In this document: positions 7,299-44,995 of the stretch, one piece after another
Numbering within the stretch: the stretch's first letter is position 1
Layout: every line of letters begins with the position of its first letter
Assembly: GCF_015207655.1 (NCBI RefSeq)
Contig: NZ_JADEWN010000003.1
Coordinates: 1-64,000, forward strand
Length of the DNA: 64,000 bases
Direction of reading: 5' to 3'
Source of the DNA: Gloeocapsopsis crepidinum LEGE 06123
Lineage (GTDB): Bacteria > Cyanobacteriota > Cyanobacteriia > Cyanobacteriales > Chroococcidiopsidaceae
Made by a program: the position numbers and the translations under genes
Notes under the pieces: generated by a model
Database searches by the model: none
What the model saw: only the letters and a program-made list of their open reading frames with translations
What the model was told of the DNA's origin: nothing

Positions 7299-7766
7299 GC
7301 AGATGCTGTACTAGCTAAAGCTTTAATACGCGTAGATTCACTGACTCTTCTACCCTAAGCTGGAAGTTCAAAAAGTGGCAATTTCTTCCCTATTTGTAAA
7401 ATTCACCCTTAACTGAAGTGCGATCGCATGTTCAAATAAATTACCAAATTGTCCTCAGCAAGACTAAGCCAATACCTGCAATTTGCGCAACCTAACTCAT
7501 GACTAAAATGCCACAATTCCTCCAGCGATTGACAACCAGGGAAACAAGAGAACGCGAAATCGCTAATATTACTTAAGAGACGATCTCCGCATCACCACAA
7601 GCTTGATATTTGGTAAAGCATAGGAAACTCTAAACATCGCACTGCAGATTTGTGCTAGGGGTTTAGAGGAATGCGATCGCACTTCTTGGCGTTCATTGTG
7701 TTTGTGTCATTGCAGTCTCCTAATATTGACTGTAATTGTGTCATGCTAGCGATCGCAACTGTGTTA
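7299..7766. other. Intergenic region without a supported gene
   Basis: About 470 bases between the CAP lipoprotein and the rhodopsin, with two HIP1 sites (7420s and 7670s). Short hydrophobic minus-strand stretches near 7440-7560, interrupted by stops, could be remnants of a membrane protein, but no family can be named. No ASRT transducer gene is present here. Confidence 0.5.
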
Positions 7767-8570
7767 TTAGTCATAGCTTCTTCTGCGCGTCGATAATCGG
7801 TTGCGTCTGGGTGTTCTTAAGAAAAACTGCATGACATTTCCTACAGTACTATCTGTACTACTTTCAGCAACACTGCTACTAATACTGCGTAATCCATGCA
7901 AATCTAAATAGCTAAATCCCACTTTGGAGAAAAAGGGAATTAAACAAAATAGAAAAGTATCAACTGTTTGATTGAAGACCCGAAATCCTGAAGGTCCCAA
8001 AATCCACACTAAGGGATAGCAAATCCACAACACGGTGAAATATGTTGTTAGGCGATCGTAAAAACTTGATAAATCGCCTCCTTGACTGCGCGTTTTAGCG
8101 CGTAATGGTCCCCAAATTCCCCACATCACAACCAAGAATGCAACAACACCGTTGATGTACCACAAATAGCGCACCCAAGGTATCACAGACAAATCAGCAA
8201 CTAAGCCACACACAACAACAATTACCTGAGTCATCATCAATGCAGCAGGCAGCACCCAATCTTTTTTTGGTAAACGATGCATCCCTGTCCAAGATAGAGC
8301 TAATAATAATAAAGGCGTCGTGACAACCCAGTCTAAATAACGTGCGTAGTGGGTTATTTGCCCAGCAACTGCAACTTTCCCTTGCTCTAATTCTCCGTGT
8401 GGTAAAACCATTGAGAGATAAGCTAATCCTGACCAAATAGGAATAAATGCTGCAACTAAATACTCATACTGCGGTATACCACGCGGGTTTGTGCTTAGCG
8501 AAATAAAGTAAATCGCACCAACAGCCATTCCAACAATATAAAGCCAGTGAAATATAGCTTCTAAATCCAT
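7767..8570 (-). CDS. Microbial rhodopsin, Anabaena sensory rhodopsin (ASR) type
   Basis: A 267-residue seven-helix retinal protein. Helix C reads ARYLDWVVTTPLLLLALSW. This gives Arg77, Asp80 and Thr84 at the bacteriorhodopsin R82, D85 and T89 positions, but Ala91 at the proton-donor D96 position. Helix G reads DTFLFCLIPFFSKVGFSYLD, with the Schiff-base Lys216 and Pro212 at the D212 position. Pro at this site and the segment WVRYLWYINGVVAFLVVMWGIWGPLRAKTR are hallmarks of ASR, a photochromic sensor rather than an efficient pump. ASR normally signals through a soluble transducer (ASRT) encoded beside it; none is visible here. The C-terminus beyond helix G is a basic tail of about 40 residues rich in Ser and Arg. 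Light sensing is inferred from the family. Confidence 0.93.
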   Translation of the reverse strand: MDLEAIFHWLYIVGMAVGAIYFISLSTNPRGIPQYEYLVAAFIPIWSGLAYLSMVLPHGELEQGKVAVAGQITHYARYLDWVVTTPLLLLALSWTGMHRLPKKDWVLPAALMMTQVIVVVCGLVADLSVIPWVRYLWYINGVVAFLVVMWGIWGPLRAKTRSQGGDLSSFYDRLTTYFTVLWICYPLVWILGPSGFRVFNQTVDTFLFCLIPFFSKVGFSYLDLHGLRSISSSVAESSTDSTVGNVMQFFLRTPRRNRLSTRRRSYD

Positions 8571-8793
8571 TGCTCCTCCAGAAAATTAATGAGGAAAAGT
8601 GTATTAAAGTCAACAAAAAAAGTATTTTACAACAATATTTTGATAGTTGATACTCCTTATAAATAAGGGGATATTCTTGCTTTTTCATCTTCTATCTGAA
8701 GGATGAATACAAATTAAAATAGAGTCATTTTTTTAGAGTGTACGTTGTATTCTTGGTAACATCAGCAAGTAGAAATAGAGCAGATTTTTAGTC

Positions 8794-9582
8794 TTATGTA
8801 CTTCTCTTCTCTTGCTGTCGGTTGGTACGAAGAATTTGCAAAAATTTGTTTAGGTTAAAACTTCGCGGATCTATTCGCGTACCTGACCGATCAACTGCCC
8901 GATGTGTCGTAATTCGATTATCCGGAACGCTACTTTGGGCTATTAACCAAGCAAGCGAACGATATTGTTCTTCTGTGTAACCACTATGTCTTCTTGCATT
9001 ATTTCTGCCACTTGGTGGAGTTTCTAGTGCTACATGATAAGCAAAGTTATTCACAGAAGGAGGAAAATTTGCATGAGTTTTTACAGCTTCTGGTCCTGAA
9101 GTACCATCAAAAACAGAATTTCCTGCACCAAAAGCTCGATATTCTGGTGGGACAAGATAAACAACTGTTCCATTTAGTTTAATTAATGCATGATAGCTTG
9201 CTTGCTGCCTTTCGTTGTAATGAGGTGTTTGGAAAAAATTAACTGTACTTGCAGCAGAACTGACTGTTTCATGTAAAACAACAATTGGTTGATTGGTAAC
9301 AGGAACGCCATTAATATCGGTAGTCAGTCTTGCACCATAATTCGTTGGGTGTACCGGAACAACTTCATAATTTGGTTGATATGCGCTTTGGGAATTGCTG
9401 AATAATTGTGCTTCTACAGAAGTTGCGATTGCTTGTGAATTAGCTGGTTGACCCCATGATCCGGCTATGTTTGATATTGGTTTTGTTTTCGGTTGTGGTA
9501 CGTGCCAAAGAGCTAAACTAAAAGTAAAAAAGCAAACTAATACAGCACTGGTAAATACGCTAATCCAAACTAAACGCCTCAT
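8794..9582 (-). CDS. N-acetylmuramoyl-L-alanine amidase (Amidase_2), membrane-anchored or secreted
   Basis: A 262-residue protein with an N-terminal signal or anchor (residues about 5-27). The catalytic domain spans about 95-245 and is AmpD/Amidase_2-like: VVLHET gives the first zinc histidine, YHALIKLNGTVVYLVPP the core strand, and THRAVDRSGTRIDPRSF the second histidine and acidic residue. It should cleave the amide between muramic acid and L-Ala in peptidoglycan in the periplasm. It is followed in its own direction by the rhodopsin, about 220 bases away, with no sign of co-regulation. Confidence 0.88.
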   Translation of the reverse strand: MRRLVWISVFTSAVLVCFFTFSLALWHVPQPKTKPISNIAGSWGQPANSQAIATSVEAQLFSNSQSAYQPNYEVVPVHPTNYGARLTTDINGVPVTNQPIVVLHETVSSAASTVNFFQTPHYNERQQASYHALIKLNGTVVYLVPPEYRAFGAGNSVFDGTSGPEAVKTHANFPPSVNNFAYHVALETPPSGRNNARRHSGYTEEQYRSLAWLIAQSSVPDNRITTHRAVDRSGTRIDPRSFNLNKFLQILRTNRQQEKRST

Positions 9583-9978: not shown

Positions 9979-10479
9979 ACTATTTACCTCAAATTACAGT
10001 CACTTATCAGGATTTTGAGCGCATTGAAATTTGTATATCACACGTTTTTCTGGCAAGGATCATACGGTAATACCAAGTTGAAATACCATGTAAACTCGTA
10101 TTCTTAAATCAACACCATTGAACAATTTCTGCTAACGATCAGTATTTGAAACAATTGTGACGAGAGAGTGACAGAAATTAAAAAGGCAAATTTTGTCATA
10201 AAATTATCTTGTTTAAGTAGTGCGATCGCAGAGTATAATTTTTAAACCTAAATAATTTGAGTAACAGCCTCTTACTTAGCGAGAAACACAAATGATGTCC
10301 GCTCCTCTATAGCCTATTCATATAACCTTAAAGTAGCATCCGGATGGATTAAATCATGTTTACTACTGATGCTTGCCACAATAACCTGAAATTAAGGCAT
10401 AGTATTATTGAGATCCACCATCGTTTAATTATTCAAAAATAGCTACAAAAATCTTTCAATCAGAGGAGTAAGGTTCGCT
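9979..10479. other. Divergent intergenic region
   Basis: About 500 bases between the minus-strand Cys-rich protein and the plus-strand permease. It holds a HIP1 site near 10222 and presumably both promoters. No gene or clear hairpin is visible. Confidence 0.5.
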
Positions 10480-11598
10480 GTGAATTTCGGTCGATGGATT
10501 GGCTTAATTGTTCTGCTGATTTCTTTGTATATCCTTTGGCAGATTCGGCAGCTGCTTCTACTCTTACTTACGGCAGTTGTAATAGCAACAGCTTTAAATC
10601 GGTTAGTTTTACAACTACAAAGATTAAACGTCAAACGCGGTTGGGCAGTTTTAATTACTTTAACAAGTTTATTGGCGCTTCTCGTTGGCTTTTTTGTCCT
10701 TATTGTACCTGCATTTATTGAACAATTTCAACAACTTATTGCTCTACTTCCTACAGGCTTGGTGCGAATTCAAACTTGGCTAAGTTGGTTAGAACTGCAG
10801 ATCGTCGAACGATTTCCTAATTTACCAGGTAACTTACCTGATATTAGTAGCTTAATTCAACAAATTCAGCCGATTGTTACTCAGTTATTAGGTCAATCTG
10901 TTAACTTTTTCTCAACTTCGATTACCGCATTACTACAGTTTCTCTTAGTCCTGGTGTTAACACTGATGTTGCTAGCACAGCCTCAGCCGTATCGTCAGTC
11001 ATTTATCCGACTTTTTCCTTCATTCTATCGCCGTCGAGTCGATGAGATTTTGACACGGTGTGATGTTGCATTGGGAAGTTGGGCTGTTGGTGCAGTGATT
11101 GAAGGAATATTTATTGCAGTCTTAAGTGGATTGGGATTATGGATTATTGGCGTACCCTTAGCCTTAGCCCATGCAATGCTTGCTGGTTTATTGAACTTTA
11201 TTCCTAATATTGGACCGACATTGAGTGCAGTATTTCCGATCGCGATCGCACTCCTTGATGCTCCTTGGAAATCAGTTGCGGTTCTCATACTATACATAGT
11301 TATTCAAAATATCGAAAGTTACTGGCTAACTCCATTAGTCATGGCACATCAAGTAGCTTTGTTACCAGCTATTACATTAACAGCACAGTTATTATTTGCA
11401 GGCTTTTTCGGTGCATTAGGATTATTGATGGCACTACCACTAACTGTTATTGCCAAAACATGGTTAGAGGAAGTCTTGTTTATAGATATTTTAGATAAAT
11501 GGCGTCACCCCCAAGCTAAAGTGATGCATGAGGAAGTCATTTATGATACTAATACAGATTACGATCCAGAAATTAGTGAGGAGTGGAAAGAAGTCTAA
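10480..11598 (+). CDS. AI-2E family transporter (PerM-like permease), intact
   Basis: A 372-residue integral membrane protein of the AI-2E exporter/PerM family. Hydrophobic helices lie near residues 5-40, 60-85, 145-170 and several between 200 and 330. The signature GLLNFIPNIGPTLSAV and the terminal segment LLPAITLTAQLLFAGFFGALGLLMALPL are diagnostic. The start is GTG at 10480, preceded by GAGGAG at 10464-10469. Substrates proposed for the family include autoinducer-2 and Na+; which applies here is unknown. Relatives are decayed at 541-1032 and 11608-12381, so this is the only intact copy in the window. The C-terminal tail (about 345-372) is acidic and cytoplasmic. Confidence 0.9.
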   Translation: MNFGRWIGLIVLLISLYILWQIRQLLLLLLTAVVIATALNRLVLQLQRLNVKRGWAVLITLTSLLALLVGFFVLIVPAFIEQFQQLIALLPTGLVRIQTWLSWLELQIVERFPNLPGNLPDISSLIQQIQPIVTQLLGQSVNFFSTSITALLQFLLVLVLTLMLLAQPQPYRQSFIRLFPSFYRRRVDEILTRCDVALGSWAVGAVIEGIFIAVLSGLGLWIIGVPLALAHAMLAGLLNFIPNIGPTLSAVFPIAIALLDAPWKSVAVLILYIVIQNIESYWLTPLVMAHQVALLPAITLTAQLLFAGFFGALGLLMALPLTVIAKTWLEEVLFIDILDKWRHPQAKVMHEEVIYDTNTDYDPEISEEWKEV

Positions 11599-11607
11599 GT
11601 TCAATGA

Positions 11608-12381
11608 CTAACCATGCTCCTTTTGATCTGCTTGAAGTTTATTTAATTCAAATAAACTAATTATTACGCCTGCAATTGGCACTGATAGAAAAACACCGCC
11701 TAAACCTGCAATTCTTGCACCTACTAGCAAGGAAAAAAACATGAAAACAGGGTAATAACGATAATTGATACTCAGGCAACTCCGATTGTTGCGCCAATAC
11801 CAGGAATTAAGTCAAATACTCCGGCGATCGTAGCAAGTAACAAAGCAAAGGGTGCTTATAATAGTAGCAAAACAACGTAAACTGAGACGCCAAAGAAGAG
11901 TGACAAAAGAAAACGTCCCCAGAAAAAACTGAGAAAATTGTGTTGAATTGCATGAGTTATTTTATTGCGCCAATGAGAGGGAAAAACTTATAAAAGAAAA
12001 TACCATAATCGCTTGCCAGCAAGTAGTATAAACAAGGCGATCGCAGCAATAATAATTAAATTGACAATATTAGTAATAGGGCTTGTAATGTAGCAAAGCC
12101 AAATCCTACTCCAGCTAAGGCTTGATTGCGAATTTGTTCTTCAATAGCCTCAAAATCTACTTGAAAGTTAAATTGCTGTGGGCTTGTTCTAGTTGTTCTA
12201 TTGCAGGTAGAACACTATTTAAGAGTTCTGGGGCTTGGTTGATAAGTTGTTTGCCTTGTGACAAAATCGCTAAATCAATTGTGAAAACTATAGCTAGTAG
12301 AAGAAAAATACTTAAGAGAAAGACAAGTATGACGGCTACAGTGTGAGGTAAGAAACGCTCTATCCAACGTATTCGTTGCAA
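11608..12381 (-). pseudogene. Second decayed AI-2E family transporter
   Basis: The minus strand from 12381 encodes an open N-terminal segment of 74 residues (VILVFLLSIFLLLAIVF, then PELLNSVLPAIEQLEQ), typical of the start of a PerM-like protein. Further down, the frame is broken. Near 11790-11840 one reads AGVFDLIPGIGATIGVA followed by a stop TGA, and near 11640-11720 LLVGARIAGLGGVFLSVPI ending in a TAG at 11608-11610. These are the conserved C-terminal blocks of the same family. At least one in-frame stop and frame changes are needed, so this is a pseudogene. It begins 10 bases after the stop of the YihY/BrkB gene, suggesting the two were once an operon. Confidence 0.85.
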
Positions 12382-12390
12382 TAATTGCTA

Positions 12391-13362
12391 CTATCTTCTT
12401 CCAATGAGACTATGCCATGTACGCATACATTTACGGCGGAAATTAGTTAATACTGGCGACGATCGCTTTTGGTTTGCTTGGTCAGAAATAGGTATTGCAT
12501 ACTCTTCTGGTACAATTGGAGATCCATGTTGTTTGGCATAGACTTTAGTAAATTCTGCACCTAAAAATAAAATATGGGCAGCGTAGTAAATCCAGGTGAT
12601 AATAATTAAAAATGAGCCAGCAACACCATAAGCTGAACCAAAATCTGTTTGACCTAAAAATAAACCAAAAAAGTACTGACCTAGCATGAATAATACTGTA
12701 GTGAAAATCGAGCCTACTAAGGCATCACGCCACCTTACCTTGGCATCAGGTAATACAGTATAAATCGCGGCAAATAAAACTGTAATCATACTAAAAGAGA
12801 CTACAAAGCTAAGAATTTGCCACCAATAGCCCTGCCCAGGTGTTAACTCATTTAAAACATCAACAACTGAGGCTAAGACTGTGTTAGCAACGAAAGAAAC
12901 AAGAAGTAAAAATGCAATTACTAGCACCATTGCAAACGACAACAATCGTTTACGTAGAAAGTGTGTAATATGCTTCCCTGGTACTGGTTTAACTTCCCAG
13001 ATTTTGTCAAGTGCATTTTGAATTTGGGCAAAAACTCCAGAAGCACCAAACGCAAAAAAAGCTAAGTTAAAAATTAAGCGGAATGGTCCTCCTGTAGCAT
13101 CTTGTCGCATATTAGCGATCGCTGTTGCAATCACCTCAGCACTTCCAGTGCCGACAATACCTTGGATTTGATTGACAAGTTGTTGCTTTGCTGTTGCTTC
13201 GCCATAAATTGCCCCTACCATCATAATGACAAGGATCATGAGTGGTACAAGCGAGAAAACTGTGTAATATGCCAAAGACGAAGCTAATAATGAAACTTGA
13301 TTAAATTGCCACTCTGAAAATGTCTCCTTAAGTAGCTGCCATACATTCCTTACATATTTCAT
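12391..13362 (-). CDS. YihY/BrkB-family inner membrane protein
   Basis: A 323-residue protein with about six membrane helices. The opening LLASSLAYYTVFSLVPLMILVI is diagnostic of the YihY/BrkB (virulence factor BrkB) family, followed by FAFGASGVFAQIQNALDKIW and, near the end, SAYGVAGSFLIIITWIYYAAHILFLGAEFTKVYA. The family was once called ribonuclease BN by error; its members are integral membrane proteins of uncertain role, possibly transport. The tail (about 285-323) is basic and cytoplasmic. It is the upstream partner of the decayed permease at 11608-12381. Confidence 0.9.
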   Translation of the reverse strand: MKYVRNVWQLLKETFSEWQFNQVSLLASSLAYYTVFSLVPLMILVIMMVGAIYGEATAKQQLVNQIQGIVGTGSAEVIATAIANMRQDATGGPFRLIFNLAFFAFGASGVFAQIQNALDKIWEVKPVPGKHITHFLRKRLLSFAMVLVIAFLLLVSFVANTVLASVVDVLNELTPGQGYWWQILSFVVSFSMITVLFAAIYTVLPDAKVRWRDALVGSIFTTVLFMLGQYFFGLFLGQTDFGSAYGVAGSFLIIITWIYYAAHILFLGAEFTKVYAKQHGSPIVPEEYAIPISDQANQKRSSPVLTNFRRKCMRTWHSLIGRR

Positions 13363-35265: not shown

Positions 35266-35271
35266 CATAGT

Positions 35272-35964
35272 TCAGAGTCGGGAGTTACACGCTTGATTCA
35301 CTACAGAACCATCTTGCAGGTGAATAATCCATTTTGCTTGAGCCGCTACATCGCGATCGTGAGTCACAATCACAATCGTAATTCCTTGCTCGTTTAATTC
35401 TTGCAGAAGATGCATCACATCTTGCGATGTCTTAGTATCTAACGCTCCTGTTGGTTCATCAGCAAGGATCATAGCAGGTTGGTTGACTAAAGCACGGGCG
35501 AATGCGACTCGTTGTTGCTGCCCCCCAGAAAGCTGGTTTGGACGCTTGGCAAGGTGTTCGCTTAGACCTACACTTGTCAAGGCTTGGATCGCCCGTTGGT
35601 GTTGCTCCTGCTGGGATAGGTTGGCATAAACCATAGGTAACATCACGTTTTCTAGGGCTGTAGCACGCGATAATAGATGAAACTGTTGAAACACAAAGCC
35701 AATGTGCTGATTGCGGATATACGCTAATTCATCCTCATTCAATGTTGTGAGGTTTTTGCCTTCGAGAAAATACTCTCCTGTCGTTGGACGGTCAAGACAA
35801 CCCACAATGTTCATCAGGGTAGATTTACCCGAACCAGAGGCTCCCATGATGGCAACGTAGTCGCCTTGCGCAATCGACAAGTCAACTTGCTTCAAAACTG
35901 GTATACTGACTTCTCCAAGGCAGTAAGTTTTAGTAATTGCTTCCATTCGTACCATTGTTGTCAT
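35272..35964 (-). CDS. MacB-type ABC ATPase, last gene of the lasso-associated run
   Basis: About 230 residues. Walker [10 protein letters not shown], then [31 protein letters not shown] and a switch His in VTHDRD show an active ATPase of the MacB/LolD type. I chose the ATG at 35964 ([14 protein letters not shown]); the upstream start at 35988 overlaps the permease and adds residues outside the fold. It begins two bases after the permease stop, so the two are tightly coupled. With the adaptor at 37255 and permease at 35966 it forms a MacAB-like exporter. It is downstream of the lasso genes and could export the peptide or give immunity; this is inference. Confidence 0.9.
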
Positions 35965-35965
35965 C

Positions 35966-37216
35966 TTACTCGCTCCGCAAAGCAACAATAGGGTCTAATT
36001 GAGCCGCATGATGTGCTGGTATCAATCCCGCCAGTAATCCAATGACGCAAGAAATTCCTAAGCTGGTAGCGACTGACCACAGGGATACGACAAAGGGAAA
36101 TTGGAAAATTGTTGCAGCCCCGAAGGAAATCACAATCCCAACTCCAACCCCGATCGCTCCTCCTGTGCAGGAAACCACCACAGCTTCTGCTAAAAATTGG
36201 TGTAAGATTGCTGCATTCGTAGCACCTACTGCTTTGCGAATTCCGATTTCTCGCGTCCGTTCCACAACGGAAACGAACATAATATTTGCGATCCCAATTC
36301 CACCGACGATGAGTGAAATGCCTGCGATCGCGACTACCATTACAGTAAATAAACCAACTACGCTATTGAGTGTATTAATAAGATCTTTTTGATTTGTTAT
36401 CCGAAATGTGTCAGGTTGCGGTGGATAAATATTGTGTCGCAAGCGCAAGAGATTTGTAACTTGAAATTGAGCTGCATCCAAATACACTTCAGAGTTAGAC
36501 TTTAACCATAAGCCACTAATAGCAAGACCCGCTAACGCATTGTTACCGACAATTCGCGCTGACATATTCGTTAAGGGAATATAGAGTTGGTCATCTTGGT
36601 CAACTTCACCCAAAGCGCCTTTGGGTTCCATCACACCAATAACTTTGTAACGTTCTCCTTGGATGCGGATGTCTGCCCCTACTGCACTTGCATTCAGACC
36701 AAAAAGGCGATCGCGTACTTTAGAACCCAAAACAACAACTGGGTTAGCCGCGTTCACGTCATCTTGACTCAAAAATTGCCCTTCTTGTGGGTAAATATTT
36801 TTAACTTCGGGGTAATATTTATCCGTACCGATCAGATTTGTGACAATCTTCTGCTCAGCATACACAACTTGTACTTGAGGCTTTTGTAAGAAGGCAGAAA
36901 CTGCTTTAGCAGCGGTTACTTGCTGGGACACTGCTTGCGAGTCTTCCCACGTTAAGGTTGCTGCACCTTGGCTACTGTTATTAGTAGTGACACCAGCTTG
37001 TACTAGCAGGACATTCGTACCTAGAGCTTGTAGCTTTTGTTCAGTTGCCTTTTGTACTCCCTGACCAATTGAGGTAATCGCGATCGCTGAGCTAATTCCA
37101 ATGATCGTGCCTAGCGTTGTCAGCCCCGTACGCAATCGATTACTCCACAATGCATCAGCTGCCATCATCAATACTTTTACCGTTGATAATCTACGGTATC
37201 GAACAGGAGGTGACAT
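35966..37216 (-). CDS. MacB-type ABC permease (FtsX fold)
   Basis: A 416-residue permease with four membrane helices. It opens with LMMAADALWSNRLRTGLTTLGTIIGISSAIAI (MacB_PCD start), then a periplasmic domain (about 60-270), and the FtsX core SLIVGGIGIANIMFVSVVERTREIGIRKAVGATNAAILHQFLAEA. MacB-type transporters act mechanically, with an adaptor and outer-membrane channel, to extrude peptides or toxins from the periplasm. It is 38 bases downstream of the adaptor and immediately upstream of the ATPase. Confidence 0.92.
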   Translation of the reverse strand: MSPPVRYRRLSTVKVLMMAADALWSNRLRTGLTTLGTIIGISSAIAITSIGQGVQKATEQKLQALGTNVLLVQAGVTTNNSSQGAATLTWEDSQAVSQQVTAAKAVSAFLQKPQVQVVYAEQKIVTNLIGTDKYYPEVKNIYPQEGQFLSQDDVNAANPVVVLGSKVRDRLFGLNASAVGADIRIQGERYKVIGVMEPKGALGEVDQDDQLYIPLTNMSARIVGNNALAGLAISGLWLKSNSEVYLDAAQFQVTNLLRLRHNIYPPQPDTFRITNQKDLINTLNSVVGLFTVMVVAIAGISLIVGGIGIANIMFVSVVERTREIGIRKAVGATNAAILHQFLAEAVVVSCTGGAIGVGVGIVISFGAATIFQFPFVVSLWSVATSLGISCVIGLLAGLIPAHHAAQLDPIVALRSE

Positions 37217-37254
37217 TATTTGAACCTTCCAATAAGCAACTAAAGTGGGCTGGG

Positions 37255-38754
37255 TTATGAACCACGACCTAGAGTTGGAACCATCGATTGAGGTCGAAAT
37301 CCTTTTGGAAAACTGACAAATATTCTTTCCTCTCCCTTCAATCCAGAGAGTACTTCGGTTTTATGATTAGCAGTGACTCCAGTGACAATAGGAGTAAATA
37401 ACGTGCGATTTCCTTGAGTTACAAAAACACCAGTATTATTTTCCTGACGCACGATCGCAACTGTAGGCACAACCAAAGCATTTTTCAGTTCACCCACCTT
37501 AAACTCCACATTCACATTCATGCCAGATCGCAGGAGTTGTTGTGCGTCTGAAAGCAGTACAATTTTCACTTCAAAACTGGTGACATTTTGCTGCGTAATT
37601 GATTGGGTAGCAATTTGAGTTACTTGACCTGCAAAAGTTTTGCGTGGATAGGCATCAGCCTGAAGAATCACCTCTTGCCCCAAACGGATTTGGGAAATGT
37701 TGCTTTCTGCTACGTATGCCACCACCTGATTATTCGCAACAAGCGACATAATTGAGGAAGAAGTCGCTGAAGAGACAGAACTGCCAGCCGTAGTTGGAGT
37801 AACAAAAGCACCAGGATCGGCAAACTTACGAGCGATCGCACCATCAAATGCAGCACGAATCACAGTGTCGTTAATCTGTGCTTGGATCGTTTGCACCGCA
37901 CCCTGTGCCTGGGTAACTTGAGCGCGGGCTTGCGCAACTTCTTCTGAGCGCGGTCCTGCTTGCGCTAATGCTAATGCTTGTTGTTTTTGCCTAACTTGAG
38001 CGCGGGCTTGCGCAACTTCTTCTGAGCGCGGTCCTGCTTGCGCTAATGCTAATGCTTGCTGTACTTCCATGACTTGTGCTTGCGCACTATCTCGCGTTGT
38101 ACGAGCTTGATTTAAAGATTGCAGCGAAATTGCTCCGGCGTTGGCAAGTTCTTGATTGCGACGGAAGTCATCTTCAGCTTGCTGCAATTGAGCCAGTGCA
38201 TTGTTTAACCGTGCTTGAGCTTGGGCAATATCTTCAGGGCGATTCCCAGCTAATAGTTTTTGCAGATTTGCTTGTACCTCAGTAAGTTGTTCTTGCGTCT
38301 GGGCAATATCTTCAGGGCGATTTCCAGCCAGTGACTGTTGTAAGTTTGCCTGCGCTGCTGCTAGTCTTCCCTGAGCCTCAATGAGTTGCCCCTGCAAATT
38401 AGAGTCATCCATGTATGCTAGAATCTGACCTTGCTTGACACGATCGCCTTCTTTAACAAGCAAACTTTTCAATACCCCTGCGGTTTTGGGACTAACGTTT
38501 ATTGACTTTTCTGGCTGAACAGTGCCGTTAGCAGCAATAGTTATAGGCAGACTCAACCGTTCTACAGCAACGGTTTGTGCTTGGTGTTTTGCTTCTTGGC
38601 GCGGCATCACAATTGTTTGGTGATAAACTGCATACGCACCTCCTGAAACGAGGGATAAGATGATTAACCTCAGTAGCAATTTAGTAATTTTGTGTTTGCC
38701 TAATTCTTTTAAAAATTTGATAACGAGTGATTGCTGGCTCGCCTGTGAAGTCAT
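37255..38754 (-). CDS. MacA/HlyD-type membrane fusion protein
   Basis: A 499-residue adaptor. It has an N-terminal anchor (about 20-45), lipoyl halves (around 75-110) and a long coiled coil (about 120-300). That coil includes two near-identical repeat pairs (EDIAQTQ/EDIAQAQ with AGNRPEDIAQ, and AQAGPRSEEVAQARAQV), suggesting internal tandem duplication that lengthens the hairpin. C-terminal beta domains end near VPTVAIVRQENN. It connects the MacB-type permease to an outer-membrane channel. It lies 133 bases after the ABC-2 permease gene. Confidence 0.9.
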   Translation of the reverse strand: MTSQASQQSLVIKFLKELGKHKITKLLLRLIILSLVSGGAYAVYHQTIVMPRQEAKHQAQTVAVERLSLPITIAANGTVQPEKSINVSPKTAGVLKSLLVKEGDRVKQGQILAYMDDSNLQGQLIEAQGRLAAAQANLQQSLAGNRPEDIAQTQEQLTEVQANLQKLLAGNRPEDIAQAQARLNNALAQLQQAEDDFRRNQELANAGAISLQSLNQARTTRDSAQAQVMEVQQALALAQAGPRSEEVAQARAQVRQKQQALALAQAGPRSEEVAQARAQVTQAQGAVQTIQAQINDTVIRAAFDGAIARKFADPGAFVTPTTAGSSVSSATSSSIMSLVANNQVVAYVAESNISQIRLGQEVILQADAYPRKTFAGQVTQIATQSITQQNVTSFEVKIVLLSDAQQLLRSGMNVNVEFKVGELKNALVVPTVAIVRQENNTGVFVTQGNRTLFTPIVTGVTANHKTEVLSGLKGEERIFVSFPKGFRPQSMVPTLGRGS

Positions 38755-38887
38755 AATTTCGTTTCTCCTGCAGTATTCAGGATTGAGAAAGTTGTACCGT
38801 TTTGCCTTAACGCTGCTATGTCTGCAAAGCTGAGGAGAAAAGAGATGACATAGTAGTATTTCAGTCCGGTAATACAGCGCCTCTACA

Positions 38888-39661
38888 TCAATATCCGCTA
38901 AGTATTCCTTGCCGCTTGGCTTGGCGTTCAGCCCATTTGAAAACGAATAAACCTAAAGCGAAATAACCTATTCCATTGAGCAAAGCAAGCATAAAGTGGG
39001 TGAGGCTTAAACTTTGGTTTCTGACCATTAAATTGCGTAGTTCCTCTGCACCAGTTGCCATTGGTAACAAGATTCCTAAGCCTCTTAACGGAGCAATCCA
39101 AGTCGCTATAGGAACTGCCAGCAAAAATAACAAGCCAAACCGGAAGAATCCCAGTAGTTGCTCAACGCGCTTGAAAACCAATGCCAAAGCCCCCATCATA
39201 AATGACATACCATAAGCACCCAACAGTAGAGTACTCAAAGGCAAAAGGAGTGTTAATGAAAAATAAAGATGAGTTCGCGTAAACAGCATAATGATGATTA
39301 GCACACCTAAAATTAAAGCAAGACGTAACCCTAAATTGGCAATAGTTCGTACTAAGAAGATTTTGGGTGCCCCAAAAGGTGAAAGAAAAATTTGTTCTAG
39401 CGTTCCGGTTTGTGCTTCCATTTGAAGCGCTGCAGCAATATCATTGACAATGAAGAGTACCAAGGTCCAGAGCACATAGCCAACCACAATTGTACTGAGG
39501 CGATCGCCGAGATGAAGTTGCGATCCGGCAACAAAGCGGGCACTGAGGAACAGTCCATAAAAAATGAAAGTTGTAATGACTAATCCAGCGATCGCTTCAA
39601 TTGGATAACGAATAAACTCAGTCCAAGTCCGTTTAATTTCCGTGAGTAACAGTTGCAGCAC
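38888..39661 (-). CDS. ABC-2 type permease (lasso cluster exporter candidate)
   Basis: A 257-residue membrane protein with about six helices, matching ABC-2 type transport permeases (LTEIKRTWTEFIRYPIEAIAGLV; TGTLEQIFLSPFGAPKIFLVR). It overlaps the start of its ATPase gene by 29 bases (39633-39661), showing coupling. Such pairs export peptides, polysaccharides or antibiotics; with the lasso genes directly upstream, peptide export or self-protection is the best inference. Lasso clusters usually encode a fused exporter of the McjD type, which is absent here. Confidence 0.9.
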   Translation of the reverse strand: MLQLLLTEIKRTWTEFIRYPIEAIAGLVITTFIFYGLFLSARFVAGSQLHLGDRLSTIVVGYVLWTLVLFIVNDIAAALQMEAQTGTLEQIFLSPFGAPKIFLVRTIANLGLRLALILGVLIIIMLFTRTHLYFSLTLLLPLSTLLLGAYGMSFMMGALALVFKRVEQLLGFFRFGLLFLLAVPIATWIAPLRGLGILLPMATGAEELRNLMVRNQSLSLTHFMLALLNGIGYFALGLFVFKWAERQAKRQGILSGY

Positions 39662-40574
39662 GACTTTCTCCTATAAGTTTTAAAAATATTTTTGTCAGGT
39701 CAGCACGGTCTTGTTTAACTTGTACTAGCGGCAACGGACTCAGTACGTTTAAAATCTGATACAGTCCTTCAGGCGTGCCAGCATAAATCATCTTTTGTGA
39801 CTCAACGACTGCACCTATTGCTTCAATTTTGCGAGTTCTGACATCATCTAACTCGCCTAAGAATTCAATGATGTAACCACAGTCAGAAAATTGCTTCACA
39901 ATTCTGGCAGTTGGTTCTAGTGCGATAATTTCGCCGTTTTGAACAATAGCTACCCGATCCGAAATTTCCTCTGCAATATTCAGTTGATGAGTAGTCAGGA
40001 GGATGGCACACCCTTCTTGCGCTATTTCCCGCACTAAAGCTTTGACGTTTTGGCTGGCTTCCACATCTAAGCCTAAAGTCGGCTCATCTAACAACAATAG
40101 TCGCGGCTGGTGAATCAACGCGACAGCGATCGCCAACTTTTGCTGCATTCCCCGCGAGAGTGCCTGAACAGGAGTGTGACGTTTGTGCAATAATTCAAAT
40201 CTGTCCAACAAAGCTAGACCTCGACGATGCGCAGCTTTGCGATTCATTCCTCTTAAAACCCCAAAATACTCTAAATTTTCTTCTGGAGTCAGCCGCCAGT
40301 AGAGATTGCGATTACCTTCTAGCACTGCACCTAACATCTGTAGTGCCTTTGAATTGCGATGCGGGTCACAACCGGCAATTTTGACCCAACCTGTATCTGG
40401 TCGAATTAGACCAGCAATCATTTTGATCGTGGTTGTTTTCCCAGCCCCGTTAGCACCAAGAAAAGCTAAGACTTCTCCAGGCTCAATCTTTAAGGATAAT
40501 TCGCGCACTGCTTCAACTAGCTTGCCGCCCTGTCGGTAGGTTTTGCGGAGTTTATAAGCTTCTAATGCAGTCAT
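39633..40574 (-). CDS. ABC ATPase, partner of the ABC-2 permease
   Basis: A 313-residue ATPase of the antibiotic/ABC-2 export type: Walker A GANGAGKTT, signature LSRGMQQKLAIAVALIHQP, Walker B LLLDEPTLGLD and TTHQ switch. The C-terminal extension (about 220-313) includes FLGELDDVRTRKIEAIGAVV, usual for the DrrA/NatA subgroup. It starts 85 bases after the asparagine-synthetase-like gene ends, on the same strand. It probably exports the mature lasso peptide together with the 38888 gene. Confidence 0.9.
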   Translation of the reverse strand: MTALEAYKLRKTYRQGGKLVEAVRELSLKIEPGEVLAFLGANGAGKTTTIKMIAGLIRPDTGWVKIAGCDPHRNSKALQMLGAVLEGNRNLYWRLTPEENLEYFGVLRGMNRKAAHRRGLALLDRFELLHKRHTPVQALSRGMQQKLAIAVALIHQPRLLLLDEPTLGLDVEASQNVKALVREIAQEGCAILLTTHQLNIAEEISDRVAIVQNGEIIALEPTARIVKQFSDCGYIIEFLGELDDVRTRKIEAIGAVVESQKMIYAGTPEGLYQILNVLSPLPLVQVKQDRADLTKIFLKLIGESRAATVTHGN

Positions 40575-40659
40575 GGCTATGATAATTGCTCAGTGGATAG
40601 TAATCAGCCGATGCAATCTGCTTGTCAGAGAAAAAGCACGGCTAGTGCGTGGCGTTTAG

Positions 40660-42570
40660 TTAGTATGTAAGTGCTACTTGCCGAGGTAGTCGATAGACTT
40701 TCGTTGGTTCTAGCGGTTGCTGTCGTACTGCCGTTATTTGGTCGAACCAAGCGATTAGAGCGAGTGTCGTGTTAATTCGCCAGCTAGCTGACACATCTCC
40801 AATCCCAACTGCAGCCTGCCGCATTACTTGAATAAGCTGCGTCTTATCAAAGACTCCTAAATCGCTAATGCTTGAATTCCGAACCATTGCTTCTAACTGA
40901 GGCAAATGTTTAGATAGCCCAATCCAGTAAACATCGTTAAACGATTTTTTGTCGCGCCTGGTGCGAATGGCTTCTGGAAGGATTCCACGCATAGCCGTTT
41001 GCAGCACAGGTTTAGGCATACCAGGAACTTGTCTAAGTGTTGTAGGAAGACTCAGGCAGAAACTCAGCAGACGAGAATCGCGGAAAGGATGCGAGTTATG
41101 CATACCATGTGGCGCTGCTAGATACCATCCAGACCAATCACCTACACTGGATTGAATAGCACACAGATCAGTAGACAATGTTGTTGAGTTGCTGCTTACC
41201 CTACGAGCGTTGTTGATTCCCAGCTGCTGCATTTTATAATTGCGCGCAAATTCGGGAAGCACCCAAGGAGGAATCGAAAAAGTTCCTAGGTTGGGCCATC
41301 TGCCAAACCCGTGGTGTAAGAATGGTTGAATTCCTTCGCGTGTCAGAATCGGGAAATTAGGCTGAATACCACATCGATACAAGATTGACCACACATTGAG
41401 GTTACTAACTTGGGCTAAGCGGTTAGCTTGGGAAAGTGCTAACGAATACTGACCTTGACGTAATAAATCGGCAATACAAAGCCAATTTCCAGCTAGCAGT
41501 TCGTCACTGCCTAAACCTGTTAAAATTGTATCTGCTCCACTTTGCGCAGCAGTCTCGACGAGAAGTTTTTCCATACTCAAGCGAAATAAACCTGCATAAG
41601 GTTCGTCGTGGTAAGGAATTTCCTCACTAAACCATTGAAAGTCTACTGCGTTGTCTGCTTCTATTAAATGAGCTACAGTTGGTCCACCCTGGTTAATGAC
41701 CATCTCAGCATAGGCTTGCTCTCCAGCTAAGCTATGTCGTTTATAAACTGCCGTCAGAGTATGTAAGTTTGGTTGCCCTACACCTGATGACATCCAGTCG
41801 CGAGCAATGCAGACTACGCTAGAGGAATCCATTCCTCCCGATAAGTGTGCTGCAATTTGTCCTCTATGCAATCGTTCTTTGACGGCTTGCTTAAAGAGCT
41901 GAGCGTATTGTTCGCCAGCTTCTTCTAAGAGAATACTATTGTTATTTCTGTTACTTCCAGCTTTTGAGTTCCAATCCCACCATCGATACTTTTCCACTTG
42001 TCCAGTAGAAGTGATTGTCAGCATTGTGCCAGGAAGTACGCGCTTGATGACATCGAAAGGTGTTCTCTGTGTAGGTAGCTCGACAGCAGGAGATGGGCAC
42101 ATGAGGAACTGTGCTATGAATTCACGGTCAAAGGCTGTATTTGGTAGCAAATTGAGAAGCGATCGCACACTGTTACTGATAGCCATCTGCGTTCCTTGGA
42201 CAAGCCAATATAGCGGCCAGCAACCAAGAGAATCGCGTAAAGCAAACAACTTTTGCTGCGAACTATCCCACACAACTAAAGAAAACTCACCCTCTAGCTG
42301 CTCAAGTCCTTTGTCACCAAGATGGCAATAGGCTGCTAAAGCGATCGCAGCATCTGATGTGCATTTTTGTACTGCGGACTGCGGCAATCGAGCCAGCAAT
42401 TCATCCTGATAACACAAATGCCCCAAAAGTACAGCTGCATTTCCTGAGTGGTAGTCGCGGGCAAAGGTCACTAAAGCAGGTCGCGCAGCATCATCTCTAT
42501 GCGGCGAAAACACATGGAACTCAATTTCTCCATCCTCACTAGCAAAAACGTCAAATCCTACGCGCATCAC
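40660..42570 (-). CDS. Lasso peptide cyclase (asparagine synthetase-like, C protein)
   Basis: A 636-residue asparagine synthetase homologue. Residues 1 to about 200 form the glutaminase-like (Ntn) domain; the catalytic N-terminal Cys of true glutamine-dependent synthetases is missing (MMRVGF...), so it should not use glutamine. Residues about 220-600 contain the synthetase domain with the ATP PP-loop HLSGGMDSSSV and ILTGLGSDELLAGN. Lasso C proteins adenylate the Asp or Glu side chain and form the macrolactam with the N-terminal amine. The gene follows the B protein after a gap of 20 bases. The identity as lasso cyclase rests on this context plus the two precursors. Confidence 0.88.
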   Translation of the reverse strand: MMRVGFDVFASEDGEIEFHVFSPHRDDAARPALVTFARDYHSGNAAVLLGHLCYQDELLARLPQSAVQKCTSDAAIALAAYCHLGDKGLEQLEGEFSLVVWDSSQQKLFALRDSLGCWPLYWLVQGTQMAISNSVRSLLNLLPNTAFDREFIAQFLMCPSPAVELPTQRTPFDVIKRVLPGTMLTITSTGQVEKYRWWDWNSKAGSNRNNNSILLEEAGEQYAQLFKQAVKERLHRGQIAAHLSGGMDSSSVVCIARDWMSSGVGQPNLHTLTAVYKRHSLAGEQAYAEMVINQGGPTVAHLIEADNAVDFQWFSEEIPYHDEPYAGLFRLSMEKLLVETAAQSGADTILTGLGSDELLAGNWLCIADLLRQGQYSLALSQANRLAQVSNLNVWSILYRCGIQPNFPILTREGIQPFLHHGFGRWPNLGTFSIPPWVLPEFARNYKMQQLGINNARRVSSNSTTLSTDLCAIQSSVGDWSGWYLAAPHGMHNSHPFRDSRLLSFCLSLPTTLRQVPGMPKPVLQTAMRGILPEAIRTRRDKKSFNDVYWIGLSKHLPQLEAMVRNSSISDLGVFDKTQLIQVMRQAAVGIGDVSASWRINTTLALIAWFDQITAVRQQPLEPTKVYRLPRQVALTY

Positions 42571-42590
42571 TTTCTCCTTTGTTAAATAGA

Positions 42591-43307
42591 TCAGCTATAC
42601 CGTGCTGCAGCTATAAAGTTCTCACAGTTGCTTTGATTGTCTGTGACTGTCCAGGAACCACACTCTACCCAGGCGTGTGCTTGGAACGGATACAAATTGA
42701 TACCAACTACCAGTTCCGCAGGAAAATGAAAAGTAGTTTTAAGAATCTGCCATCCTACAAGTGCCCGCTCTTTACAAGCCATTGGCAGAAGGGGATATTT
42801 TGCTGCACCTTCTCGAACTAAAGCATCAACTGCTTGAACTGCCTCTTTATCAGGTACTTTGTAAGTAGTAGAACGTTGCCAACGCCGCCACAGCCGAATC
42901 GTTCGCGTCCAACCTAGAGTGCGAATGCTAATCCAAGCTAGTGTTAATAACACAGAGATGGTTAGGTATGACGGTAGTTTAGGATGTTGCAGTTGTGGTA
43001 GTTGATCAATTAATTGCTTGCGTTGTAGATCGTGTAGTAGCTTGTTAGCGTCAGCTTGTACTTGTTCTTTTGTGACACCGTATTCGTTGGCGATCGCTTG
43101 CGCTGTTTCTTCAGGATTGCGATCGAGTAAAAGCATTAACATTTTCGTGCCAACTGTGTCTAATCCATAGAACTTACCGCGATTGAGTCCCAGCAGTCGT
43201 GCTACGCCGTCTTGAAGAACCACGATCACGTCTTGCTTGAGTCGATAAGCTCCACTTCCTTCAACAATTACCGTAGGGTTAAATTTTTGTTGTACTGAGT
43301 AAGACAT
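42591..43307 (-). CDS. Lasso peptide B protein (PqqD-like RRE fused to transglutaminase-like peptidase)
   Basis: A 238-residue two-domain protein. Residues about 10-95 form a PqqD-like RiPP recognition element (GAYRLKQDVIVVLQDGVARLLGLNRGKFYGLD). A hydrophobic linker (about 112-132) may be a membrane or buried helix. Residues about 145-238 are the lasso B2 peptidase fold with Cys178 (ACKERALVGWQIL), His211 (QAHAWVE) and Asp223 as the presumed triad. It should bind the leader of the precursors and cut it off. The one-protein B1+B2 arrangement is as in proteobacterial clusters. It lies about 200 bases downstream of precursor A1, with a hairpin between. Confidence 0.92.
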   Translation of the reverse strand: MSYSVQQKFNPTVIVEGSGAYRLKQDVIVVLQDGVARLLGLNRGKFYGLDTVGTKMLMLLLDRNPEETAQAIANEYGVTKEQVQADANKLLHDLQRKQLIDQLPQLQHPKLPSYLTISVLLTLAWISIRTLGWTRTIRLWRRWQRSTTYKVPDKEAVQAVDALVREGAAKYPLLPMACKERALVGWQILKTTFHFPAELVVGINLYPFQAHAWVECGSWTVTDNQSNCENFIAAARYS

Positions 43308-43385
43308 AAATACTATCCTGCTGATTTTTTGAGTTACTCATGACACTAATAACTACAAATGCAGCTATTTCAAGTTGTAAAAAAG

Positions 43386-43419
43386 AGGCAGCTTTAGAGA
43401 GTAGCTTAATAAGCTGCCT
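43386..43419 (-). other. Hairpin between precursor A1 and the B gene
   Basis: AGGCAGCTT (43386-43394) pairs perfectly with AAGCTGCCT (43411-43419) around a 16-base loop. It lies between the end of A1 and the start of the B gene. A copy with one G-U pair follows A2 (43700-43733). Neither has a long U-run, so partial termination or transcript stabilisation that would favour precursor over enzyme production is possible. Confidence 0.6.
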
Positions 43420-43513
43420 GTATGAAATATGGCTTAATAATGCATAGCTTTTAAAGCTATCTTGCTAAGAACATTAATGTTTCACACACTCACAATGGCT
43501 ATTTTTGGATTGC

Positions 43514-43651
43514 TTACCACCAGAGCAGCCAGTTGTACCAATCGTAATAGCCGATCCAAGAAAAGCCTTGGATTTTATCAATATTTCCGAGTTTATACAA
43601 TTCTGGTGCGCGGTAGCTAGAGTTATTTACTAATGCCATCTGTTGACTCAT
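43514..43651 (-). CDS. Lasso peptide precursor A1
   Basis: A 45-residue peptide starting MSQQMALVNNSS, with a strong ribosome-binding site AAAGGAG 7 bases upstream of the ATG at 43651. The leader carries the lasso motif YRAPELYKLG (YxxPxLxxxG). Aligning it with the known fusilassin leader places the cut after Gly, giving a core FSWIGYYDWYNWLLWW of 16 residues. The only acidic residue, Asp8, would be the ring acceptor (8-residue ring). Nine of the 16 core residues are aromatic. The usual penultimate leader Thr is Gln. An alternative cut one residue earlier gives a Gly1-Asp9 ring. Too short for most gene callers. Confidence 0.88.
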   Translation of the reverse strand: MSQQMALVNNSSYRAPELYKLGNIDKIQGFSWIGYYDWYNWLLWW

Positions 43652-43699
43652 GACTGACTCCTTTGATTGTTATTTGGGTTTAGATAGTTGGTAGGAAAC

Positions 43700-43733
43700 A
43701 GGCAGCTTTGGAGAACAGATTGATAAGCTACCT
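43700..43733 (-). other. Hairpin between precursors A2 and A1
   Basis: AGGCAGCTT (43700-43708) pairs with AAGCTACCT (43725-43733), with one G-U pair in minus-strand RNA. It is the duplicated copy of the hairpin at 43386 and sits in the spacer between the two precursors. Confidence 0.55.
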
Positions 43734-43834
43734 GTATCATACGTGGCTTTTTAATGCTTAGCTTTTAGAGCTATTCTCCTGCTAAGCACATTGATGTTTT
43801 AACAAGCTCATATCGGCTGTTTACAAACCGATTA

Positions 43835-43972
43835 AAACCAGATCAACCAGTTGTAAAAGTCATAAAAGAATCCAACGATATAAAACCCTTGGATTTTATC
43901 GATATTTCCAAGTTCATACAATTCTGGTGCGCGGTAGTGAGAGTTATTTATTAATGCCATCTGTTGACTCAT
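43835..43972 (-). CDS. Lasso peptide precursor A2
   Basis: A 45-residue peptide from ATG 43972, with the same AAAGGAG ribosome-binding site as A1. The leader reads MSQQMALINNSHYRAPELYE and then LGNIDKIQG, nearly identical to A1. The core by the same alignment is FYIVGFFYDFYNWLIWF (17 residues). Its only acidic residue, Asp9, gives a 9-residue ring; starting the core at the Gly would require a 10-residue ring, outside the known 7-9 range. Ten of 17 core residues are aromatic. It is the first gene of the codirectional run. The stop TAA lies near 43832-43837, immediately after WF. Confidence 0.87.
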
Positions 43973-44995
43973 GATTGACTCCTTTGATTGTTGTTTGGGT
44001 TTAGATATCGTGTCACGCTTTTTTTAGCGATTCACTCAGCAAGCGGTTTAACTGCTTGCCTGATTGATAAGTTACTAAGTTTGCACAGATAAAGTAATAC
44101 TTGTTTATGTAGATTTAGTTGCTCACCTTAGAAAGTTAAATTGCACAAAACTGCAACAATGCACTTTGCTAAAGAAAATGTGTAGCCAAACCAAACGTAT
44201 TAAATTTAATACGTGCAAATGTTGTTAGATAGCCTAAGAAATAAAATTTAGAAGAGTATCTTTGCTAAATTGAGGCTGATCAGCACATTGATAAGTTAAA
44301 GCAGGAAAATATTTGTACTATTAGCAGCTCTAATATTTTTTTATTAATACGTCGAGTAGTTGATATATTGACTGGATTGTAACCTAAAACTATAGCTAAT
44401 GAAACTTATTACTTTAATTGCATAACATTATTTATCAAACCAATGAAAAAATAATAAATTATTTTTTTAGTTTTAACATGATACAGAAAAAAATAATCAA
44501 TAGAAAAATACAATAAGATATCTTCGCATGAGAGAAATGCTAAATTAATCTTGAGTTTTTGCCTTACAGAGAATGAATTTTTAGACTTACTTTTAGTGCC
44601 TATTTTTTAAGCTTTTTAAAGAATTAAGTTAGTTATCAATTAACATAAATATAGTAGTGAGCATCTAATAATCGTTGATCGTTGAAGTAGTGGCGATATG
44701 CTCAAACCAGTGTATGACAATAGTAAATACTAGTAGTACGTTGTATGCCTACTTAAATCAATAAATGACCTCTTCTCAAATTGTCTTTTTGATAAATGAC
44801 TAGTTTGAATCAAACAAAGTCAACTTATATACAATCATCATACTTAATTTTGCTTTTTATACAAAAATTTAAGAAAACTCTGTATTTTAATTTGAAAAAT
44901 TAGGTAAATATATACAAAAGTAGTACGATTGATTCTCCTTACTCAGCTGACAGCACAACAAGTAGTCAAAAGCTTAAAGGATTTCTTAAGTAATA
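43973..44995. other. AT-rich control region upstream of the lasso genes and PhoD-like gene
   Basis: About 1 kb between the divergent A2 precursor and the PhoD-like gene. It is strongly AT-rich and contains the palindrome at 44195-44214. No further precursor-like ORF with the YxxP leader was found. It presumably holds promoters for both sides. Confidence 0.55.
44195..44214. promoter_or_regulatory. Perfect 20-bp palindrome, candidate operator
   Basis: ACGTATTAAATTTAATACGT reads identically on both strands. It lies 223 bases upstream of the A2 start codon. A half-site TTAATACGT recurs at 44344-44352. Such dyads are typical of dimeric repressor or activator sites, although an AT-rich cruciform is also possible. 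No regulator gene is in the immediate cluster. Confidence 0.55.

Follow-up and report, generated by a model that had tools for sequence, protein, structure and literature searches.

The window analysed here, a stretch of 64,000 nucleotides from Gloeocapsopsis crepidinum LEGE 06123, contains two small genes, A1 and A2, which we consider likely to be duplicated lasso peptide precursors: both would be cut after Gln(-2)-Gly(-1), and a single enzyme set would turn them into a Phe1-Asp8 and a Phe1-Asp9 lasso respectively. The genes, their order, the clade to which they belong and the conserved sites can be read from the sequence. Both ORFs were confirmed on the minus strand, where a preliminary description of this DNA had placed them. 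A1 (45 aa, 43514..43651) has its leader, MSQQMALVNNSSYRAPELYKLGNIDKIQG, at 43565-43651 and its predicted core, FSWIGYYDWYNWLLWW, at 43517-43564, whilst in A2 (46 aa, 43832..43972) the leader, MSQQMALINNSHYRAPELYELGNIDKIQG, is at 43886-43972 and the predicted core, FYIVGFFYDFYNWLIWF, at 43835-43885. In both genes a ribosome-binding site, AAAGGAG, lies within a few nucleotides 5' of the ATG. The leaders share 26 of their 29 residues and the cores 9 of 16, A2 having one added in-frame codon within the ring; the predicted tails are of the same length, 8 residues, and aromatic (WYNWLLWW in A1, FYNWLIWF in A2). An RNA hairpin, CAGGUAGCUU...AAGCUGCCUG, lies 3' of A2 (43698..43735, minus strand; the 101-nt region around it folds with z = -4.3) and has been duplicated along with the precursor gene, its second copy, AGGCAGCUU...AAGCUGCCU, lying 3' of A1 (43386..43419, minus strand; z = -2.2). 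The two genes are a tandem duplication whose unit takes in the ribosome-binding site and the downstream hairpin region. The similar hairpin after each precursor gene may tune the expression of precursor relative to enzymes.

The two precursors were compared with the usual features of lasso peptides. Cys is absent from both cores, as in class II lassos, and the leader motif YxxPxL occupies positions -17 to -12. Given a cut after Gly, the acid falls within core positions 7-9, as Asp8 in A1 and Asp9 in A2. Thr(-2), a common feature of lassos though not an obligatory one, is missing: as the preliminary description correctly recognised, both leaders have Gln in its place. The lasso_cyano profile NF033528 did not match A1 at E <= 1, and matched neither precursor at E <= 0.001. 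We found no third precursor in the 64-kb window with a YxxP-type pattern, and in the rest of the assembly the sole other match was at noise level (E = 0.67).

Relatives were sought by scanning a genome collection with the cyclase, which picked out Moorena bouillonii, by searching with the B protein (the fused leader-binding protein and peptidase described below) and its alignment, and by reading the ORFs near the genes so found. This yielded nine further precursors in eight other cyanobacterial genomes with a fused B, all with Gln(-2). With the predicted cut shown as a slash, these are ...DKVQR/YWFGPRFDWFFWRCFFFCR (Moorena), ...NVVQG/YYSGSYYDGSSSWFFYG and ...EKVQA/NYAGSQTDASRNFYYN (both in G068), ...EQVQA/YYRGSMFDGPNSPYNYNG (G202), ...EQVQA/NDLGSMIDGPNRAYYYNG (G192), ...EQIQA/YNSGSMVDGPIGALYYRG (G654), ...NNVQS/SVQGSYIEGPNSQFWYS (Nostoc sp. 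ATCC 53789, G667), ...DKIQG/GPTGSYREYSGYYYG (G611) and ...DLVQS/YSYGKYSDGYSGYYWER (G605). No precursor was seen in two more fused-B genomes, G207 and G609, whose contigs stop near the B gene on the expected precursor side. Tyr, Pro, Gly and Gln are invariant across all 11 precursors, A1 and A2 included. In a cyclase tree of 22 rows, one group with 100/100 support takes in all nine systems for which a Gln(-2) precursor is known, together with G207 and G609, and excludes those with Thr(-2). Within it the window is sister to Moorena, G605 joining the two at 97/96; a flagged long-branched row, L119, fell outside the Gln(-2) group. Since all nine relatives' precursors have Gln(-2) and share the site alignment set out below, the sequences indicate that Gln(-2) characterises a whole cyclase clade, itself well supported, and is not peculiar to A1 and A2.

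A precursor-profile search of 386 genomes of the phylum gave strong matches outside the genome itself only in G192 and G202; the ten weaker loci that were translated (L046-L049, L051-L054, L058, L059) gave no sequence recognisable as an intact precursor. The one other Gln(-2) record from a search of plasmids, pNsp_a of Nostoc sp. ATCC 53789, proved to be the replicon of G667. Within the RRE, the turn residue corresponding to FusE Tyr33 (numbering approximate) is apparently Gly in the Gln(-2) proteins and in most of the Thr(-2) cyanobacterial ones, and does not discriminate between them. At the position after it, almost every cyanobacterial RRE of the Thr(-2) type has Glu, where the Gln(-2) clade has V, F, I or T, a difference confounded by clade. 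We found no description of the fused-B cyanobacterial lasso group or of its Gln(-2) in the open-licence papers searched, which is weak evidence of absence. Two side observations concern pNsp_a (L122): a pentapeptide-repeat protein gene at 7837-8970, between B and the cyclase, might encode an immunity protein, and the precursor near 7656 has no CDS listed in the record's table. Elsewhere, L112 (G015) has five tandem Thr(-2) precursors with near-identical cores at 10428-11520, by one lasso gene set.

Where the leader is cut determines the ring sizes. The preliminary description preferred to place it behind the leader Gly, so that the cores start with Phe1 and close rings of 8 and 9 residues, and this reading is the best supported. 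The first point to note is spacing: YxxPxL in lasso leaders sits at -17 to -12 (PMC10368454), and in both A1 and A2 its Tyr lies exactly 17 residues before Phe. Secondly, the site reads [I/L/M]-T-x in 33 cyanobacterial Thr(-2) precursors, a set picked by a profile built on Thr(-2) sequences and so informative about the shape of the site, not the frequency of Thr. In the 11 clade precursors it reads [I/V]-Q-x; the match aligns Gln with Thr(-2). Thirdly, counted from this cut, an Asp or Glu lies at +8 in 10 of the 11 precursors (the nine relatives and A1) and at +9 in A2 only. Fourthly, the residue at -1 varies within the clade (G, A, S, R). On these sequence grounds the cut most likely follows Gly, with Phe as residue 1 and rings of 8 (A1) and 9 (A2). 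Aromatic starts are rare, however: in a table of 55 known cores, 48 have Gly, Ser or Ala as their first residue and a single one has an aromatic residue there, which weighs against Phe1. In its favour, the fuscanodin core begins with Trp1 (PMC12427821), and P1' tolerance has been reported for fusilassin.

The strongest competing reading keeps the same pathway but has B cut in front of the leader Gly, giving Ile/Val(-2), Gln(-1), a mostly small residue 1 and rings of 9 (A1) and 10 (A2); we regard it as attractive on chemical grounds but unlikely. When cores are read from the residue that follows Gln, 10 of the 11 begin with Gly, Ala or Ser, the commonest starts among known lassos, which weighs against a cut after Gly. 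Ile or Val precedes Gln in all 11, and Ile(-2) occurs naturally in BsfA. The preliminary description had argued that A2 would then need a 10-residue ring, outside known lasso sizes. The requirement stands; the size is not wholly outside what is known, as the fusilassin enzymes accept rings of 7-10 residues (PMC13352647) and made a 10-residue one in vitro. Even so, the earlier cut would call for a natural 10-residue ring in A2, shift Tyr from -17 to -16, put the clade's site out of register with the [I/L/M]-T-x of the Thr(-2) precursors and have the Moorena core begin with Arg. With the cut after Gly, the pair of ring sizes is plausible and precedented, given the 8- and 9-residue rings of the caulosegnins and the tolerance of the fusilassin enzymes. 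As a separate observation, many cyanobacterial Thr(-2) precursors (L123-L152, for example L123 in G093, L131 in G219 and L149 in G088) have their candidate ring acid at +10, sometimes +11, counted from a cut one residue after Thr, whilst their close relatives have it at +9; this group has either natural 10-residue rings or a shifted cut.

The genes downstream of the precursors, all on the minus strand, encode the expected machinery. The B protein (42591..43307; PF05402 and PF13471, with NF033537 above its cut-off) is a PqqD-like RRE fused to a transglutaminase-like B2 leader peptidase of the Cys-His-Asp type, in which C178, H211 and D223 are invariant in nine sequences. When B was modelled (six aligned sequences only; mean pLDDT 77), the N-terminal RRE part of the model matched leader-bound TbiB1 and TfuB1 with TM 0.81-0.89, normalised by target. 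The C protein (40660..42570; PF00733 and GATase domains) is an asparagine-synthetase-like lasso cyclase with the ATP-site motif SGGMDSS; its best NCBIfam match, the cyanobacterial lasso cyclase model lass_lactam_cya, scores 222 bits, far below the cut-off of 525, which counts against the proposed pathway. Then follow a DrrA-like ABC transporter ATPase (39633..40574; PF00005, TIGR01188 below cut-off) and its putative ABC-2 type permease partner (38888..39661), which has no family match, adjoins the ATPase and keeps this placement in Moorena. Beyond these lie an HlyD-type membrane fusion protein (37255..38754; PF12700, PF16576), a MacB-type permease (35966..37216; PF12704, PF02687) and an ABC ATPase presumed to be its partner (35272..35988; PF00005).

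In the pathway that we propose, the place of the cut, the closing and threading of the ring and the export of the products are all predictions. The RRE half of B would bind the leader at its YRAPEL motif, and the B2 half would cut behind Gln(-2)-Gly(-1), releasing Phe1. The cyclase would then activate the sole acid of the core and join it to the amine of Phe1 around the threaded tail, yielding an 8-residue ring closed between Phe1 and Asp8 from A1 and a 9-residue ring closed between Phe1 and Asp9 from A2, both lassos coming from the one enzyme set. Export of the products may fall to the ATPase with its permease and to the HlyD-MacB-ATPase set, as gene position and family suggest.

Passing a bulky tail through an aromatic 8-residue ring is sterically demanding, which weighs against the predicted threading. 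The precursors could instead be cut and cyclised yet left unthreaded, as branched-cyclic macrolactams: threading cannot be read from sequence, and bulky side chains pack the rings. We judge this improbable, as B and C have lasso-type domains, the leaders are of lasso type, and steric locking is typically the work of bulky aromatic residues in the tail.

The lasso genes form an island (35270..44790, a region without strand) that is missing from two congeneric genomes. Its boundaries are clean: the congeners' flanks are collinear at 83-94% identity, with the segment replaced by ~440 bp (L162) or ~180 bp (L163), so the whole operon constitutes one island. The congeners have only paralogs of the HlyD protein, ~46% identical to it. 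From these comparisons, the island appears either to have been gained in G. crepidinum LEGE 06123 or to have been lost in both congeners. That the cluster is silent or decaying, with A2 a non-functional duplicate, would fit its absence from the congeners and a promoter scan in which promoter-like sites at the lasso cluster were no commoner than chance, but is very improbable, as every ORF of the island is intact, neither precursor gene has lost its leader motif, its ribosome-binding site or the Asp that would close the ring, and the cores differ in length by one complete codon.

A1 and A2 also stand out in composition. A recount agreed with the preliminary description on 9 aromatic residues of 16 in A1, 10 of 17 in A2 and one acid, Asp, in each core. 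Against the background of the window's proteins (8.2% F+W+Y), these fractions (0.56 and 0.59) have binomial p values of ~1e-6 and ~2e-7 respectively, calculated post hoc for cores chosen for their composition. By a stronger yardstick, A1 and A2 are more aromatic than every known lasso core among the 55 distinct entries of the table in PMC12427821, where the median is 0.15 and the maximum, RES-701-1, 0.44. Aromatic residues make up a fraction of 0.17-0.59 of the cores in a Gln(-2) sample (n = 11) versus 0-0.10 in a Thr(-2) sample (n = 11; Mann-Whitney p = 8e-5, which overstates independence because the rows are related). The Gln(-2) family thus leans aromatic, with the window and Moorena at the extreme end of the tendency. 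The summed interface-partition values of A1 and A2 are also more favourable than those of any lasso in the same table. As ring closure would consume the amine and the acid, the C-terminus alone would stay charged, which makes a membrane or lipid-like target plausible; that the products act on a membrane, lipid-like or other hydrophobic target is speculation from composition.

Thr(-2) is found in ~94% of lasso precursors (PMC11420955) and has elsewhere been called invariant, a preference explained structurally by the RRE-B2 pocket. A clade whose members all have Gln(-2) offers a natural counter-specificity with which to test the pocket model, and could be used for building orthogonal leader/peptidase pairs. 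A1 and A2 themselves amount to a natural ring-expansion experiment, with near-identical leaders, tails of equal length and one extra ring codon, and their aromatic excess over the tabulated lassos would widen the known range of cores that lasso cyclases can fold. We tentatively suggest, as a possibility on the doubtful side, a distinct cyanobacterial lasso branch in which a fused RRE-peptidase reads Gln(-2) in place of Thr(-2) and the cyclase takes an aromatic residue 1, duplication having given a natural pair of 8- and 9-residue rings. The pair would have an aromatic tail of constant length, would be free of charged side chains and would act on membranes or some hydrophobic target.

Among known systems, the NCBIfam lasso_cyano type (NF033528) is likewise cyanobacterial with a YxxP leader, but has Thr(-2), separate B1 and B2, cores that are ~4% aromatic and a cyclase of another clade. 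RES-701-1 has 16 residues and an aromatic tail, DWFFNYYW, yet begins with Gly1 and is 44% aromatic; its Streptomyces family has been described as endothelin B antagonists. Fuscanodin/fusilassin of Thermobifida fusca shares an aromatic residue 1 and an aromatic-rich class II core, and differs in its separate B1 and B2, in the explanation given for its invariant Thr(-2) and in being 33% aromatic. BsfA of Bradymonas sediminis also has a -2 residue other than Thr, read by its own peptidase, but that residue is Ile, B1 and B2 are separate and the precursor is phosphorylated by a kinase. In caulosegnins I-III, several precursors are served by one enzyme set with rings of 8 and 9, although these have Gly1 and an ordinary composition; the mixed ring sizes predicted for A1 and A2 thus have a precedent within one gene cluster. 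The uncharacterised system of Moorena bouillonii PNG (L032) resembles the window in its cyclase (66% identical), gene order, Gln(-2) and aromatic core with Asp8. It differs in having Arg(-1), two tail Cys, a VKOR/thioredoxin-type gene pair and one precursor found. The VKOR/thioredoxin-type gene is split into two overlapping ORFs at 11941-12872, and may serve to form the disulfide of a class IV lasso.
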